Shown one piece after another: positions 26,021-56,815 of a DNA stretch of 64,000 nt. The notes under the pieces are model-generated. The model was not told where the DNA came from and did not search any database. It saw only the letters and a list, made by a program, of their open reading frames with translations. Where the stretch lies: NCBI RefSeq assembly GCF_001975725.1, contig NZ_CP019434.1, forward strand, positions 62,001 through 126,000, written 5' to 3'. Position numbers and translations under genes: made by a program. The DNA is from Acidihalobacter ferrooxydans. GTDB lineage: Bacteria > Pseudomonadota > Gammaproteobacteria > DSM-5130 > Acidihalobacteraceae. Every line of letters starts with the position of its first letter. The first letter of the stretch is position 1.

Positions 26021-26128
26021 TGACGAACCGCCGTTGTCCATCCTGAATACGGCAGTTTGCGATGCGCGCGGGGCCGATAACGAAGCTGAATGATGTTACG
26101 TTTCCAGTCGCTGTCAGTGGAGCCGCTT

Positions 26129-26500
26129 ATGCCTTTGTCTGAACCTGTTCTGCCATTACTTGCCGGCGCACTGACTGTATTGCGCATCGTGCTCCTGTTT
26201 ATCGTCACGGCGGTCGCCGAGATCGTCGGCTGCTATCTGCCCTGGCTCGTGATCAAGCAGGGCAAGCCGCTTTGGCTGCTGTTGCCCGCGGCGGTTTCGC
26301 TGGCCGCATTCGCGTGGTTATTGACCCTGCATCCCACCGCGGCTGGGCGTACTTATGCCGCGTATGGCGGCGTATATATCGCCGTGGCGATCGGCTGGCT
26401 ATGGATGGTCGAAGGGATACGTCCCAGTCTGTGGGATGTTATCGGCGCCCTCGTCGCCCTCACCGGGATGGCCATTATCATGTTTGCGCCCAGGCAGTAG
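26129..26500 (+). CDS. ynfA: YnfA/UPF0060 family inner-membrane protein
   Basis: This 123-residue four-TM protein matches YnfA closely: [52 protein letters not shown] and a C-terminal [13 protein letters not shown]. coli YnfA is ~108 residues and resembles small multidrug resistance proteins. The start at 26129 has GTGGAG 8 bases upstream; the ATG at 26090 is less well placed. Confidence 0.88.
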
Positions 26501-26748: not shown

Positions 26749-26776
26749 GAACTTTCCCGGAAACCTCCGGTCTGAA
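26749..26776 (+). promoter_or_regulatory. Candidate sigma-E (RpoE) promoter
   Basis: GAACTT (26749-26754) and GTCTGA (26770-26775) are separated by 15 bases. Both hexamers and the spacing match the E. coli sigma-E consensus and the rpoH P3 arrangement as I remember them. Predicted start of transcription is about 26782. What follows is a hairpin-rich stretch ending in a strong terminator, not an ORF. Confidence 0.6.
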
Positions 26777-26781
26777 CTTGT

Positions 26782-26890
26782 AAGCACTTAGCCCGGTGCT
26801 TCCCGCCGCCCCCCTTGGCGGGTTCGACTTGTCTCCCCCCTTCAAGTCGAAAGTACTTGCCCCGGCCATTGGCCGGGGCATTCTTTTTAT
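26782..26890 (+). ncRNA. Candidate sigma-E-dependent small RNA with C-rich loops
   Basis: About 105-110 nt fold into four consecutive hairpins: AGCAC/GTGCT (26783-26800); CCCGCC/GGCGGG (26802-26822) with loop GCCCCCCTT; TTCGACTTG/CAAGTCGAA (26823-26851) with loop TCTCCCCCCTT; and a terminator stem. It has no ORF, is preceded by a sigma-E-type promoter, and lies between ynfA and the convergent cls gene. Pyrimidine/C-rich loops could pair with G-rich ribosome-binding sites. I do not recognise a named family; the closest idea in the literature is sRNAs carrying C-rich anti-Shine-Dalgarno loops. Confidence 0.6.
26858..26890 (+). terminator. Strong intrinsic terminator
   Basis: TGCCCCGGCC (26858-26867) pairs perfectly with GGCCGGGGCA (26871-26880) over a 3-base loop, followed by TTCTTTTTAT. 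It ends the candidate small RNA only 6 bp before the convergent cls stop codon. Confidence 0.85.
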
Positions 26891-26896
26891 CGTCGC

Positions 26897-28333
26897 CTAA
26901 AGCAATCCACCGAACAATCCTGCCGCGTTGAAATACAGCCGTTTCGGCCACGCCAGCGTTTGCCATTGCGTGGCGATAATGGTTGACGATGCTGCCATGT
27001 ATCGGGCCTGTAGCGCGCGCAGTTCCCGCGTGAAGTCTTCGTCGTAGACGATCAGCGACAGCTCGAAATTGAGCTCAAAGCTGCGCCGGTCGAGATTTGC
27101 CGAACCGAGAATGGACAAGCGTCCGTCGACCGACAGCGTTTTGGCATGCAGCAGGCCGTTGAGGTATTCCCGGATGTGTACGCCGCTATCCAGAAAATCC
27201 GAATAAAAACCTCGACTTGCTGCTGCCACGAGTTTCGAGTCATTGCGCGCCGGTACGACCAGGCACACACGCGTGCCACAGCGCGCCGCAGCATGAATGG
27301 CCGCCGCGGTGCCTTCATCGGGCACCAGATAGGGCGAGGTGATCACCACCTCCTCGCGGCCGAGATGCAGCGCGGCCTGCTGTACCTGGCGCATGGCGTA
27401 GTTGTAGGACATCGGTCCGGTGCCGATGACTTGTACATCCACGCCGTCGGGTCGCGGTGCGGGCTGTACCGACAGGACCTCGCCCAGCCATTCGTTGGCA
27501 TCCAGATACCAATCCTCGATGAACAGCCGCTGCAGATCCCAGACGACCGGCCCGCGCACCCGGATCGTGGCATCCACCCAGGGCGCGTAACTGGCCTTGG
27601 GCGCGAAGGCCGCATCAGCGATGTTCTGGCTGCCGGTATAGGCCACGCGCCCATCGATGATCGCCAGCTTGCGGTGATTGCGCACATCCAGTCGCGCGAA
27701 CAGCGCGCGCAGCGGATTGACCGGCAGCGCGGCGCGCACCTGCACGCCCGCCGCCTCCAACTGCGTGCGCAGGGCCGAACCCAGGAAATGTTTCGAGCCG
27801 ACGGCATCGACCAGCACGCGGCAGATCACGCCGCGGCTGGTGGCGCGTTCGAGTGCCTCGGCAACGGCCTGACCTGAGCTATCGTCGAGGTAGATATAGG
27901 TTGTCAGATGACAATGCTGCTCGGCGGCGTCGATGTCCGCGACCAGCGCATCGATCATGCGGGCGGAATCGCTGAGCAGCGTCAGCGCATTGCCGTGCCG
28001 CGCCGGCGTTCCGCCCACCGATTCGGCGAGTTTGGCGATCGGGCGATGGTCGACCGGCAATTCGGCCGCGTTATCGGCATGGGGCGCTTCGAGCAATTCG
28101 GTCTGCCAGCGCCGCAGTCGTTTATGCCGCCTCACCCGGCCTCGGCCCAGCCGCACCTCGCCGAACATGAAATACAGGACGGGGCCGGCGATTGGCACCA
28201 ACAGCACAACCACGATCCACGACAAGCGCGAGCTCGGTGTGCCCTGGCGGCGCAGCAGAATGCGTACCACGATGGCAAGCCGAATCAGCAGTTCAAAAGA
28301 GACTACCAGCGATGGCAGCTCATAATTGAGCAT
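26897..28333 (-). CDS. cls: Cardiolipin synthase (phospholipase D superfamily)
   Basis: This 478-residue membrane enzyme condenses phosphatidylglycerol (or PG with PE) into cardiolipin. It has two N-terminal TM segments (about 8-27 and 37-58, including WIVVVLLVPIAGPVLYFMFGE) and two HKD motifs: His220-Lys222-Asp227 (NHRKLAIIDG) and His396-Lys398-Asp403 (LHAKTLSVDG), with GSANLDRRSFELNFE after the second. Length is standard for ClsA. Which of the ClsA/B/C subtypes it is cannot be fixed, though the two TM segments favour ClsA. Confidence 0.94.
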   Translation of the reverse strand: MLNYELPSLVVSFELLIRLAIVVRILLRRQGTPSSRLSWIVVVLLVPIAGPVLYFMFGEVRLGRGRVRRHKRLRRWQTELLEAPHADNAAELPVDHRPIAKLAESVGGTPARHGNALTLLSDSARMIDALVADIDAAEQHCHLTTYIYLDDSSGQAVAEALERATSRGVICRVLVDAVGSKHFLGSALRTQLEAAGVQVRAALPVNPLRALFARLDVRNHRKLAIIDGRVAYTGSQNIADAAFAPKASYAPWVDATIRVRGPVVWDLQRLFIEDWYLDANEWLGEVLSVQPAPRPDGVDVQVIGTGPMSYNYAMRQVQQAALHLGREEVVITSPYLVPDEGTAAAIHAAARCGTRVCLVVPARNDSKLVAAASRGFYSDFLDSGVHIREYLNGLLHAKTLSVDGRLSILGSANLDRRSFELNFELSLIVYDEDFTRELRALQARYMAASSTIIATQWQTLAWPKRLYFNAAGLFGGLL

Positions 28334-33344: not shown

Positions 33345-36038
33345 ATGTCCAAACCTGCCCTGATCCTCGTCGACGGTTCCTCGTATCTGTACCGCGCCTT
33401 CCACGCCCTGCCGCCGCTGACCAATGCGCACGGCGAGCCCACCGGCGCGGTGTACGGCGTCATCAACATGCTCAAGCGCCTCATCAAGGACTACGCGCCG
33501 GAGCATGTCGGGGTGATTTTCGACGCCAAGGGCAAGACCTTCCGCGACGACCTGTACGCCGACTACAAGGCCAACCGCCCGCCGATGCCGGACGCGCTGC
33601 GGGCGCAGATCGAACCGCTGCACGCATTGATTCGCGCCATGGGCCTGCCGCTGCTGGCGGTCGAGGGCGTCGAGGCCGACGACGTGATCGGCACGCTGGC
33701 CTGTCAGGCCGCCGCGCAGGGTCGTGACGTGCTGATTTCCTCCGGCGACAAAGACCTCGCGCAGCTGGTTGACGAGCACGTCACCCTGGTCAACACCATG
33801 AGCAACACCACGCTCGACCGCGCCGGCGTGATCGACAAGTTCGGCGTGCCGCCCGAGCGCATCGTCGACTACCTTGCGCTGGTCGGCGACAGCGTGGACA
33901 ACGTGCCGGGTGTCGAGAAGTGCGGCCCCAAAACCGCCGTCAAATGGCTACAGGCCTACGACTCGCTCGACGGCATCATGGCGCACGCCGACGAGGTCAA
34001 GGGCAAGGTCGGCGACAACCTGCGCGCCGCGCTGGCGTGGCTGCCGCAGGCGCGCGAACTGGTCACCGTGAAGCTGGACGTACCGCTGGAGCAGGGGCCG
34101 GACGACCTCGTGCCCAGCGCGCCCGATACCGATACCTTGCGCGCGCTGTTCACCCGGCTTGAGTTCAACACCTGGCTGCAGGAGCTGAACGGCGGCGGCG
34201 AAACCGCCGAGGACACGGCTACGCAGGCCACCGGGCACTACGAATGCGTGCTCGACGATGCCGAACTGGCGGTCTGGATCGAGCGTCTGAAGCAGGCCGA
34301 AGTGTTCGCCTTCGACACTGAGACTACCAGCCTGGATTACATGCAGGCGCGCGTGGTCGGCCTGTCCTTTGCCGTCGAGCCGGGCGCGGCGGCCTACGTG
34401 CCGCTCGCTCACGACTACCCCGGCGTGCCCGAGCAGCTCGATCGTGAGGCCGTGCTCGAACGCCTGCGGCCGCTGCTGGAAAGCCGCGAACACGCCAAGG
34501 TCGGTCATCACCTCAAGTACGACCGCAACGTGCTCGCCAACCACGGCATCACGCTCGAAGGCATCCGCCACGACACCATGCTCGAATCCTACGTGCTCGA
34601 CGCCACGGCCAACCGTCACGACCTCGACACGCTGTGCGCCGCCCACCTCGACCACCGCAACATCAAATACGCGGACGTTGCCGGCAAGGGCGCCAAACAG
34701 ATCCCCTTCGCCGCCGTCGGGCTCGAAGAGGCCACGCCCTACGCCGCCGAGGACGCGGATATGACGCTGCGCCTGCACCGCCTGTTCTGGCCGAAACTGG
34801 AAGCCGAGCCGGGCTTGCGCAAGGTTTACGAGGAGATCGAAATCCCGCTGCTGCGCGTGCTCTCGCGCATCGAGCGCAATGGCGTGCGCATCGACGCCGA
34901 GCGCCTGCGCAAGCAGAGCGCCGCACTCGCCGAGCGCATGTCCGCCATCGAGAAGCAGACCCGCGAAATCGCCGGCTGCGCCTTCAATCTCGGCTCGCCC
35001 AAGCAGATTCAGGAAATCCTCTACGACCGCCTCAAGCTGCCCGTGCTGCGCAAGACGCCCAAGGGCCAGCCGTCCACCGCCGAGGACGTGCTCGAAGAGC
35101 TGGCCGCGCAGCACGAACTGCCGCGCCTGATCCTCGATCACCGCAGCCTGGCCAAGCTCAAGTCCACGTACACCGACCGCCTGCCCGAGCGCGTCGATCC
35201 GGACACCGGCCGCGTGCACACCTCGTATCACCAGGCCGTCGCCTCGACCGGCCGCCTGTCCTCGTCCGAGCCGAACCTGCAGAACATTCCGGTGCGCACC
35301 GAGGAGGGCCGGCGCATCCGTCAGGCCTTCGTCGCCGAGCCGGGCAACATCCTGATTGCCGCCGACTACTCGCAGATCGAACTGCGCATCATGGCGCATC
35401 TGTCGGCCGACCCCGGCCTGCTCAAGGCCTTCGCCGAAGGTCAGGACATCCACCGCGCAACCGCCGCCGAAGTCTTCGGCGAGACGCTGGACACGGTGAC
35501 CACCGACCAGCGCCGCGCGGCCAAGGCGATCAATTTCGGCCTGATCTACGGCATGTCCGCCTTCGGCCTCGCGCGCCAGCTCGACATCGGTCGCGCCGAG
35601 GCGCAGGACTATGTCGAGCGCTATTTTGCCCGCTACCCCGGTGTGCGCGAGTACATGGACCGCACCCGCGCGCGTGCGAAAGAGGACGGCTACGTCGAAA
35701 CGCTCTTCGGCCGCCGGCTCTACCTGCCCGACATCAACGCCCGCAACGGCCAGATCCGTGCCCAGGCCGAGCGCGTGGCGATCAACGCGCCGATGCAGGG
35801 CAGCGCGGCCGACATCATCAAGCGCGCGATGATCCGCGTGGATCGCTGGATCGAGACGCAGGCTCCGAACGTGCGCATGATCATGCAAGTGCACGACGAA
35901 CTCGTGCTGGAAGTTCCCGATTCACGCCTGGACGAAACCCGTGCGGCGCTGCGCGAACACATGGAAGATGCTGCAGAACTGGCCGTACCGCTGATCGTCG
36001 ACATCGGGACCGGCCACGACTGGGAGGCGGCGCACTGA
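33345..36038 (+). CDS. polA: DNA polymerase I
   Basis: This is an 897-residue three-domain polymerase. The 5'-3' exonuclease covers residues ~1-290 (ILVDGSSYLYRAFHAL, VEADDVIGTLA, GVEKCGPKTA). The 3'-5' exonuclease has FDTETTSLDY (Exo I), HHLKYDRNVL (Exo II, with His where E. coli has Asn420) and YAAEDADMTL (Exo III). The polymerase domain has DYSQIELRIMAHLS (motif A), RRAAKAINFGLIYGMSAFGL (motif B) and VHDELVLE (motif C). All proofreading acids are kept. The start at 33345 gives the usual N-terminus; the long upstream extension of the frame is antisense to the antiporter. Confidence 0.97.
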   Translation: MSKPALILVDGSSYLYRAFHALPPLTNAHGEPTGAVYGVINMLKRLIKDYAPEHVGVIFDAKGKTFRDDLYADYKANRPPMPDALRAQIEPLHALIRAMGLPLLAVEGVEADDVIGTLACQAAAQGRDVLISSGDKDLAQLVDEHVTLVNTMSNTTLDRAGVIDKFGVPPERIVDYLALVGDSVDNVPGVEKCGPKTAVKWLQAYDSLDGIMAHADEVKGKVGDNLRAALAWLPQARELVTVKLDVPLEQGPDDLVPSAPDTDTLRALFTRLEFNTWLQELNGGGETAEDTATQATGHYECVLDDAELAVWIERLKQAEVFAFDTETTSLDYMQARVVGLSFAVEPGAAAYVPLAHDYPGVPEQLDREAVLERLRPLLESREHAKVGHHLKYDRNVLANHGITLEGIRHDTMLESYVLDATANRHDLDTLCAAHLDHRNIKYADVAGKGAKQIPFAAVGLEEATPYAAEDADMTLRLHRLFWPKLEAEPGLRKVYEEIEIPLLRVLSRIERNGVRIDAERLRKQSAALAERMSAIEKQTREIAGCAFNLGSPKQIQEILYDRLKLPVLRKTPKGQPSTAEDVLEELAAQHELPRLILDHRSLAKLKSTYTDRLPERVDPDTGRVHTSYHQAVASTGRLSSSEPNLQNIPVRTEEGRRIRQAFVAEPGNILIAADYSQIELRIMAHLSADPGLLKAFAEGQDIHRATAAEVFGETLDTVTTDQRRAAKAINFGLIYGMSAFGLARQLDIGRAEAQDYVERYFARYPGVREYMDRTRARAKEDGYVETLFGRRLYLPDINARNGQIRAQAERVAINAPMQGSAADIIKRAMIRVDRWIETQAPNVRMIMQVHDELVLEVPDSRLDETRAALREHMEDAAELAVPLIVDIGTGHDWEAAH

Positions 36039-55108: not shown

Positions 55109-55112
<4 letters not shown>
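54801..55112 (+). CDS. ureB: Urease beta subunit
   Basis: This is a 103-residue Ure[20 protein letters not shown], then [10 protein letters not shown] with the conserved His pair, and [22 protein letters not shown]. It packs against UreC near the active-site flap. The last 4 bp overlap the ureC start (ATGA), so the two are translationally coupled. Confidence 0.97.

Positions 55113-56813
<1,701 letters not shown>

Positions 56814-56815
<2 letters not shown>

Follow-up and report, generated by a model that had tools for sequence, protein, structure and literature searches.

The intergenic stretch at positions 26749–26890 of the 64,000-nucleotide Acidihalobacter ferrooxydans sequence analyzed here (the window) raises the question of whether it encodes a regulatory RNA and, if so, to which family that RNA belongs. 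A first-pass annotation, made from the letters of the window, had proposed a sigma-E-dependent small RNA (sRNA) without an open reading frame, located between ynfA and cls. The location is as described, with Pfam identifying an upstream ynfA (UPF0060) gene at 26090–26500 on the forward strand and a convergent cls-like gene of the PLD family (cardiolipin synthase-like) at 26897–28333 on the reverse strand. The noncoding character also holds, in that no forward-strand open reading frame longer than 50 aa overlaps 26749–26890 and none fits the element. A small-protein reading was rejected on this ground and on the single-base indels found between copies of the element, which rule out a conserved reading frame.

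The promoter of sigma-E (RpoE) type lies at 26749–26775 on the forward strand and reads GAACTT-N15-GTCTGA exactly as first annotated, with GAACTT at 26749–26754, a 15-nt spacer and GTCTGA at 26770–26775. The pattern GAACTT-N15/16-GTCNNA has this single match on the two strands of the 64-kb window, against 0.075 expected from first-order Markov sequences. With a promoter matrix trained on promoters of relatives only, Acidihalobacter being left out, the site scores 22.2 bits and the runner-up in the 64 kb scores 12.2 bits. RpoE (311 bits), RseA and Hfq are all encoded in the same genome, a single contig of 3.45 Mb, as are two further ECF-like sigma factors. The region upstream of rpoE itself contains GAACTT with a poor −10 element (best site 6.0 bits with the same matrix), so autoregulation does not serve to calibrate the sigma-E motif.

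The sRNA gene, about 109 nt long (26782–26890, forward strand), is predicted to start 6–7 nt past the −10 element and to end in a T-rich tail. The RNA has a folding energy of −52.5 kcal/mol versus −31.3 ± 3.2 for dinucleotide shuffles (z = −6.5), and none of the 200 shuffles folds as well. Hairpin 1 (26782–26801) carries the loop UAGCCC, hairpin 2 (26802–26822) the C-rich loop CCCCCCU and hairpin 3 (26823–26851) the loop UCUCCCCCCUU; in the fold of the window copy these three abut directly, with no unpaired domain between them. An intrinsic terminator follows on the same strand (26858–26888), composed of a 10-bp stem (26858–26880) and the T-rich tail. Where the first-pass annotation had counted four hairpins plus a terminator and two C-rich loops, the structured RNA, the 10-bp terminator stem and the C-richness of the loops stand, while the counts are revised: three hairpins and the terminator make up the four, and the C-rich loops number three, the hairpin 1 loop also containing CCC.

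Further copies of the element were found by nucleotide search. A second copy in the same genome (C1:353702–353808) scores 89.5 bits with the R2 covariance model described below, whose training set includes it, and directly precedes a 15-bp tandem repeat, GCCAATCGTTTGTCT, of 5.7 copies (L021 4814–4898). Other genomes of the taxonomic family hold one to five copies each, and in three sister-genus genomes (G002, G003 and G004) the 4–5 copies per genome form mostly a tandem array directly after polA, with an additional copy next to cls in G003. A pattern scan of genomes returned one true locus, in the congener, together with a chance match in Pusillimonas, and the plasmid collection contained no match to the sRNA. 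On a tree with weak support, the closest neighbor of the window copy is the congener's polA-linked copy. Across 17 copies aligned within the taxonomic family, the hairpin 3 stem is invariant, the AGCCC loop of hairpin 1 is kept and a sigma-E motif is common to the upstream regions, taking the form GAAACTT or GAACTC for part of the copies. Misalignment of hairpins 1 and 2 hid any covariation from RNAalifold in a MAFFT alignment of these 17 copies, a problem that structure-guided alignments solved. Multiplication is also seen elsewhere: G174 has four tandem copies between polA and engB (L129 4168–4703), arrays having arisen outside Acidihalobacter too, and genus g23 has two-copy arrays away from polA and engB (L137 3767–4144 and L138 3988–4352), which in G025 are additional to an engB-linked copy and are dispersed paralogues outside Acidihalobacter as well.

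We built a covariance model (R1) from the 17 taxonomic-family copies only, leaving hairpin 2 unmodelled, and with it found distant relatives in the class. These keep the four-hairpin layout; their hairpin 2 ends in a UCCUCCCU-type loop and their hairpin 3 in a CCCC loop. A second model (R2), built from 16 sequences with hairpin 2 included, finds hits at E ≤ 0.001 in 154 of the 369 genomes sampled from the Gammaproteobacteria (sensu GTDB), placing the sRNA family in about 40% of them; the initial discovery of the distant relatives by the family-only R1 provides an independent check on R2 membership. The window copy scores 104 bits with R1 and 100 bits with R2, and is itself in both training sets. 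The stem covariation in homologues that the first-pass annotation had suggested as a check was borne out among 95 aligned members taken from fetched loci. All four stems covary, and compensatory (two-sided) change is observed in 28 of 30 stem pairs, including 7/7 pairs of hairpin 1. The proportion of paired cells is 92.1%, compared with 71.8% after shuffling and 33–51% with the partners slid, and the covariation score reaches 0.54 versus 0.18, figures that are somewhat inflated by the fitting of the 95-member alignment to the structure. Hairpin 2 covaries too, even though it was absent from R1, the model that led to the relatives in the first place. The conserved unpaired elements of the family are the C-rich loops, with CCCC within the hairpin 3 loop in 89/95 members and CUCCCU or CCUCC as the hairpin 2 loop in most distant relatives. 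Hairpin 1 loops lacking CCC (GCAAC type) occur in two related genomes (L084 54–174 and L088 4146–4266), which makes loop 1 the least constrained loop outside Acidihalobacter.

The promoter is conserved together with the RNA. A strict sigma-E pattern starting between −48 and −24 is found in 67 of the 95 members, 55/78 when only members outside the taxonomic family are counted, compared with 0–7 matches in upstream control windows. Its spacing is near-fixed, with −31 the commonest position and the one near which the window promoter also lies; the handful of matches placed elsewhere probably arose by chance. A real sRNA governed mainly by another sigma factor, with GAACTT/GTCNNA recognized by some other ECF sigma or retained through shared descent, would accommodate the minority of family members without the motif (for example G166, G275 and G013), the missing strict motif at the sX13-like loci discussed below and the two additional ECF-like sigma factors of this genome. 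This explanation is unlikely given that the motif has retained its spacing and position at many loci with widely differing flanks, that the motif is present in 10/15 Pseudomonadaceae polA downstream regions and that the Pseudomonas sRNA ErsA is strictly sigma-22 dependent (PMC7565897). The covariation of four stems (n = 95), the near-fixed upstream motif, the conserved loops and the presence of genes for RpoE, RseA and Hfq thus argue for the sigma-E-controlled sRNA with C-rich loops that was originally proposed.

The genomic neighborhood provides an independent check on this family, as gene context played no part in the covariance-model search. Outside the taxonomic family, polA or engB lies within 3 kb in 57/66 loci (polA in 41, engB in 49), and several of the loci lacking both within that distance are short contigs. 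The sRNA is directly 3′ of polA in the congener and in the three sister-genus genomes. The window copy is adjacent to neither gene, the usual neighbor polA (33348–36038, forward strand) being 6.5 kb beyond the sRNA, and the region following this polA contains no sRNA-like copy. The order polA–sRNA–cls in the congener (G001) points to a local rearrangement that removed polA and left sRNA and cls joined in the window, and cls follows the sRNA in several other relatives as well. The cls neighbor had been taken to support a link to envelope stress; it provides no functional evidence, since in the taxonomic family cls simply comes next after polA and the sRNA. In G244 (two copies; L081 4291–4586) and G018 (L106 1501–1622) the sRNA is flipped with respect to polA and yet keeps its own sigma-E-type promoters, an arrangement that is a local inversion of a self-contained unit. 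The match to the polA gene of G004 (L024 1880–4575) is split between two frames at about aa 304–309, which suggests a frameshift or a sequencing error.

The variable neighborhood also bears on whether the element is a regulator at all. As ynfA precedes it on the same strand and relatives have it in several copies, it could in principle be a terminator region of the ynfA 3′ UTR or a structured repeat element. We consider this highly improbable, as the sRNA has its own promoter, the upstream gene varies (polA in relatives, ynfA here) and the stems undergo compensatory change while the C-rich loops stay constant. Moreover, the same kind of RNA is independently transcribed in Burkholderia (ncS04; PMC5688073), and ErsA of Pseudomonas is likewise an independent transcript.

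Spot 42, sX13 and ErsA also map to the polA–engB region that is home to the family; the window RNA was compared with these and other named RNAs. Searched at gathering scores, Rfam has nothing at 26749–26890. The nearest curated family is RF02837 (anti-hemB; ncS04 of Burkholderia cenocepacia), for which the window copy scores 41.7 bits against a gathering score of 49.5, a threshold that other members of the sRNA family exceed. RF02837 matches 142/369 genomes at E ≤ 1e-4, largely at the places matched by R2, so that the two models identify the same sites in many genomes. The RF02837 model covers hairpins 2 and 3 and the terminator, differs in lacking hairpin 1, and takes its name from the neighboring gene in Burkholderia. 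The engB–sRNA–hemB order in G325, a genome with an RF02837 match, suggests that the Burkholderia RNA sits at that same ancestral position. In B. cenocepacia, ncS04 is a mapped independent transcript that binds Hfq (PMC5688073).

ErsA of Pseudomonas aeruginosa is likely the closest characterized relative. It is encoded in the polA–engB intergenic region (PMC8575079), the locus used by the relatives of the window RNA, and shares with the latter a sigma-E/sigma-22-type promoter, a terminator at its end and a C-rich loop. ErsA depends on sigma-22 (AlgU/sigma-E) and responds to envelope stress (PMC7565897, PMC8395346), and together with Hfq it represses algC and oprD under sigma-22 control (PMC8395346). 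It differs in its length of 132 nt and in a 34-nt U-rich, unstructured pairing domain (PMC8575079), domain II between SL1 and SL2, which is absent from the window RNA. A sigma-E-type promoter follows polA in 10/15 Pseudomonadaceae genomes, in most cases with an ErsA-like RNA after it. R2 gives weak matches at the ErsA place in Pseudomonadaceae polA downstream regions (E 0.003–0.055), none of them significant, the best E over 61 kb being 0.003.

The sX13 RNA of Xanthomonas lies 175 bp after polA (PMC3771888). Location downstream of polA, constant for sX13, is shared by relatives of the window RNA and not by the window copy itself. Common to both RNAs are a highly structured fold and three C-rich apical loops; sX13 differs in having an unstructured 5′ region. 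Two sX13-like loci are matched by R2 (E 1.3e-5 and 7.5e-4), and the post-polA loci of f13 genomes have C-rich loops resembling the 4C, 4C and 5C loops described for sX13; the f13 loci were classed as sX13-like and those of Pseudomonadaceae as ErsA-like from published descriptions (plus, for Pseudomonadaceae, a CrcZ marker match), without aligned reference sequences. In the two sX13-like loci that were read, a strict sigma-E motif was not seen upstream.

Less similar are the Betaproteobacteria toxic sRNA (RF02278) and Neisseria NmsR, which share C/U-rich unpaired anti-RBS stretches and a multicopy arrangement, and differ in their loci; RF02278 has only two hairpins and scores the window copy at 30.6 bits against a gathering score of 50. 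Spot 42 (RF00021) occupies the same genomic locus, polA–spf–engB, in enterics. Homology to it was rejected by score, the window copy reaching 16.7 bits against a gathering score of 80, and none of the 369 class genomes has a Spot 42 match over the cut-off. Spot 42 is controlled by CRP-cAMP and is not known to be under sigma-E control.

These comparisons lead us to favor, by a modest degree, a common origin of ErsA, sX13, the Burkholderia anti-hemB RNA and the RNAs of Acidihalobacter in a single ancestral polA–engB sRNA of beta- and gammaproteobacteria, driven by sigma-E and conserved as an envelope-stress regulator, with Spot 42 as a diverged or replaced occupant of the locus. The window element belongs to a known kind of sRNA, and the unifying family looks new. 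A single model uniting the polA-locus sRNAs with conserved sigma-E control appears to be unreported in searchable papers, and a literature search whose reach excluded most subscription papers found no paper naming both ErsA and sX13.

For the window RNA itself, we consider it very probable that it is a trans-acting sRNA of the polA–engB family, transcribed by RpoE under envelope stress, whose C-rich loops pair with Shine–Dalgarno (SD) regions. The structure, covariation, conserved promoter, locus, copies and presence of RpoE, RseA and Hfq were read from sequence; the transcription, stress induction, Hfq use, SD pairing and repression predicted for it are taken from relatives and known biology. 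Under this model, envelope stress would lead RpoE to transcribe this member of an old beta/gammaproteobacterial family at home between polA and engB, and its three stable hairpins would offer their C-rich loops to the G-rich SD regions of target mRNAs. Stress-induced transcription by RpoE would put it in one functional class with the sigma-E sRNAs MicA and RybB. Such pairing would mainly block translation, probably with Hfq, although the reported Hfq independence of sX13 (PMC3771888) makes Hfq use by the window RNA uncertain. Acidihalobacter relatives have multiplied the sRNA, both in tandem and at dispersed sites, and the window copy would be the one left beside cls once separated from polA. 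The family loops (CCCC in loop 3; CCUCC or CUCCCU in loop 2) complement SD sequences, and repression of mRNAs by sX13 relies on its C-rich loops and on start-proximal G-rich motifs (PMC3771888). The window RNA would, by analogy, most likely act as a sigma-E-induced translational repressor.

The highly structured character of the RNA, which leaves little of it single-stranded, and the multiple tandem copies, which suggest that dose matters, are also compatible with sponging of another sRNA or of a protein, or with C-rich loops that titrate a C-binding factor without RBS pairing. That role is quite unlikely given that the loops are anti-SD-like (CCUCC or CUCCCU) and that sX13 needs its own C-rich loops together with mRNA G-motifs (PMC3771888). 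A CsrA sponge as the main role was rejected, as GGA, the CsrA motif, is found in the loops of only 13/95 members.

For the preferred role in SD pairing, a narrow target search for AAGGGGGG positioned 2–10 nt before ATG returned six sites in the A. ferrooxydans genome versus one in the control. One of the six precedes a MurC-like gene, recognized by eye, and none precedes an obvious outer-membrane protein gene; these candidate sites may be taken as only a lead. Duplex energies at the sites ignore intramolecular folding and were left out of the assessment.

The polA–engB-linked region thus widely encodes sRNAs that have a covarying structure in common, carry C-rich anti-SD loops and mostly possess a sigma-E promoter. 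R2 is a defined family model ready for testing, which would join RNAs known by separate names and predicts envelope-stress control for the sRNAs of many unstudied bacteria; in an extreme acidophile, the multiplication of the sRNA amounts to a natural experiment on dose. Elsewhere in the window, the Rfam family 5_ureB_sRNA (RF02514) matches 55263–55547 on the reverse strand with 104 bits, antisense to the start of the urease alpha-subunit gene (55109–56815, forward strand), a match that is probably due to conservation of the urease coding region and not to an antisense RNA.
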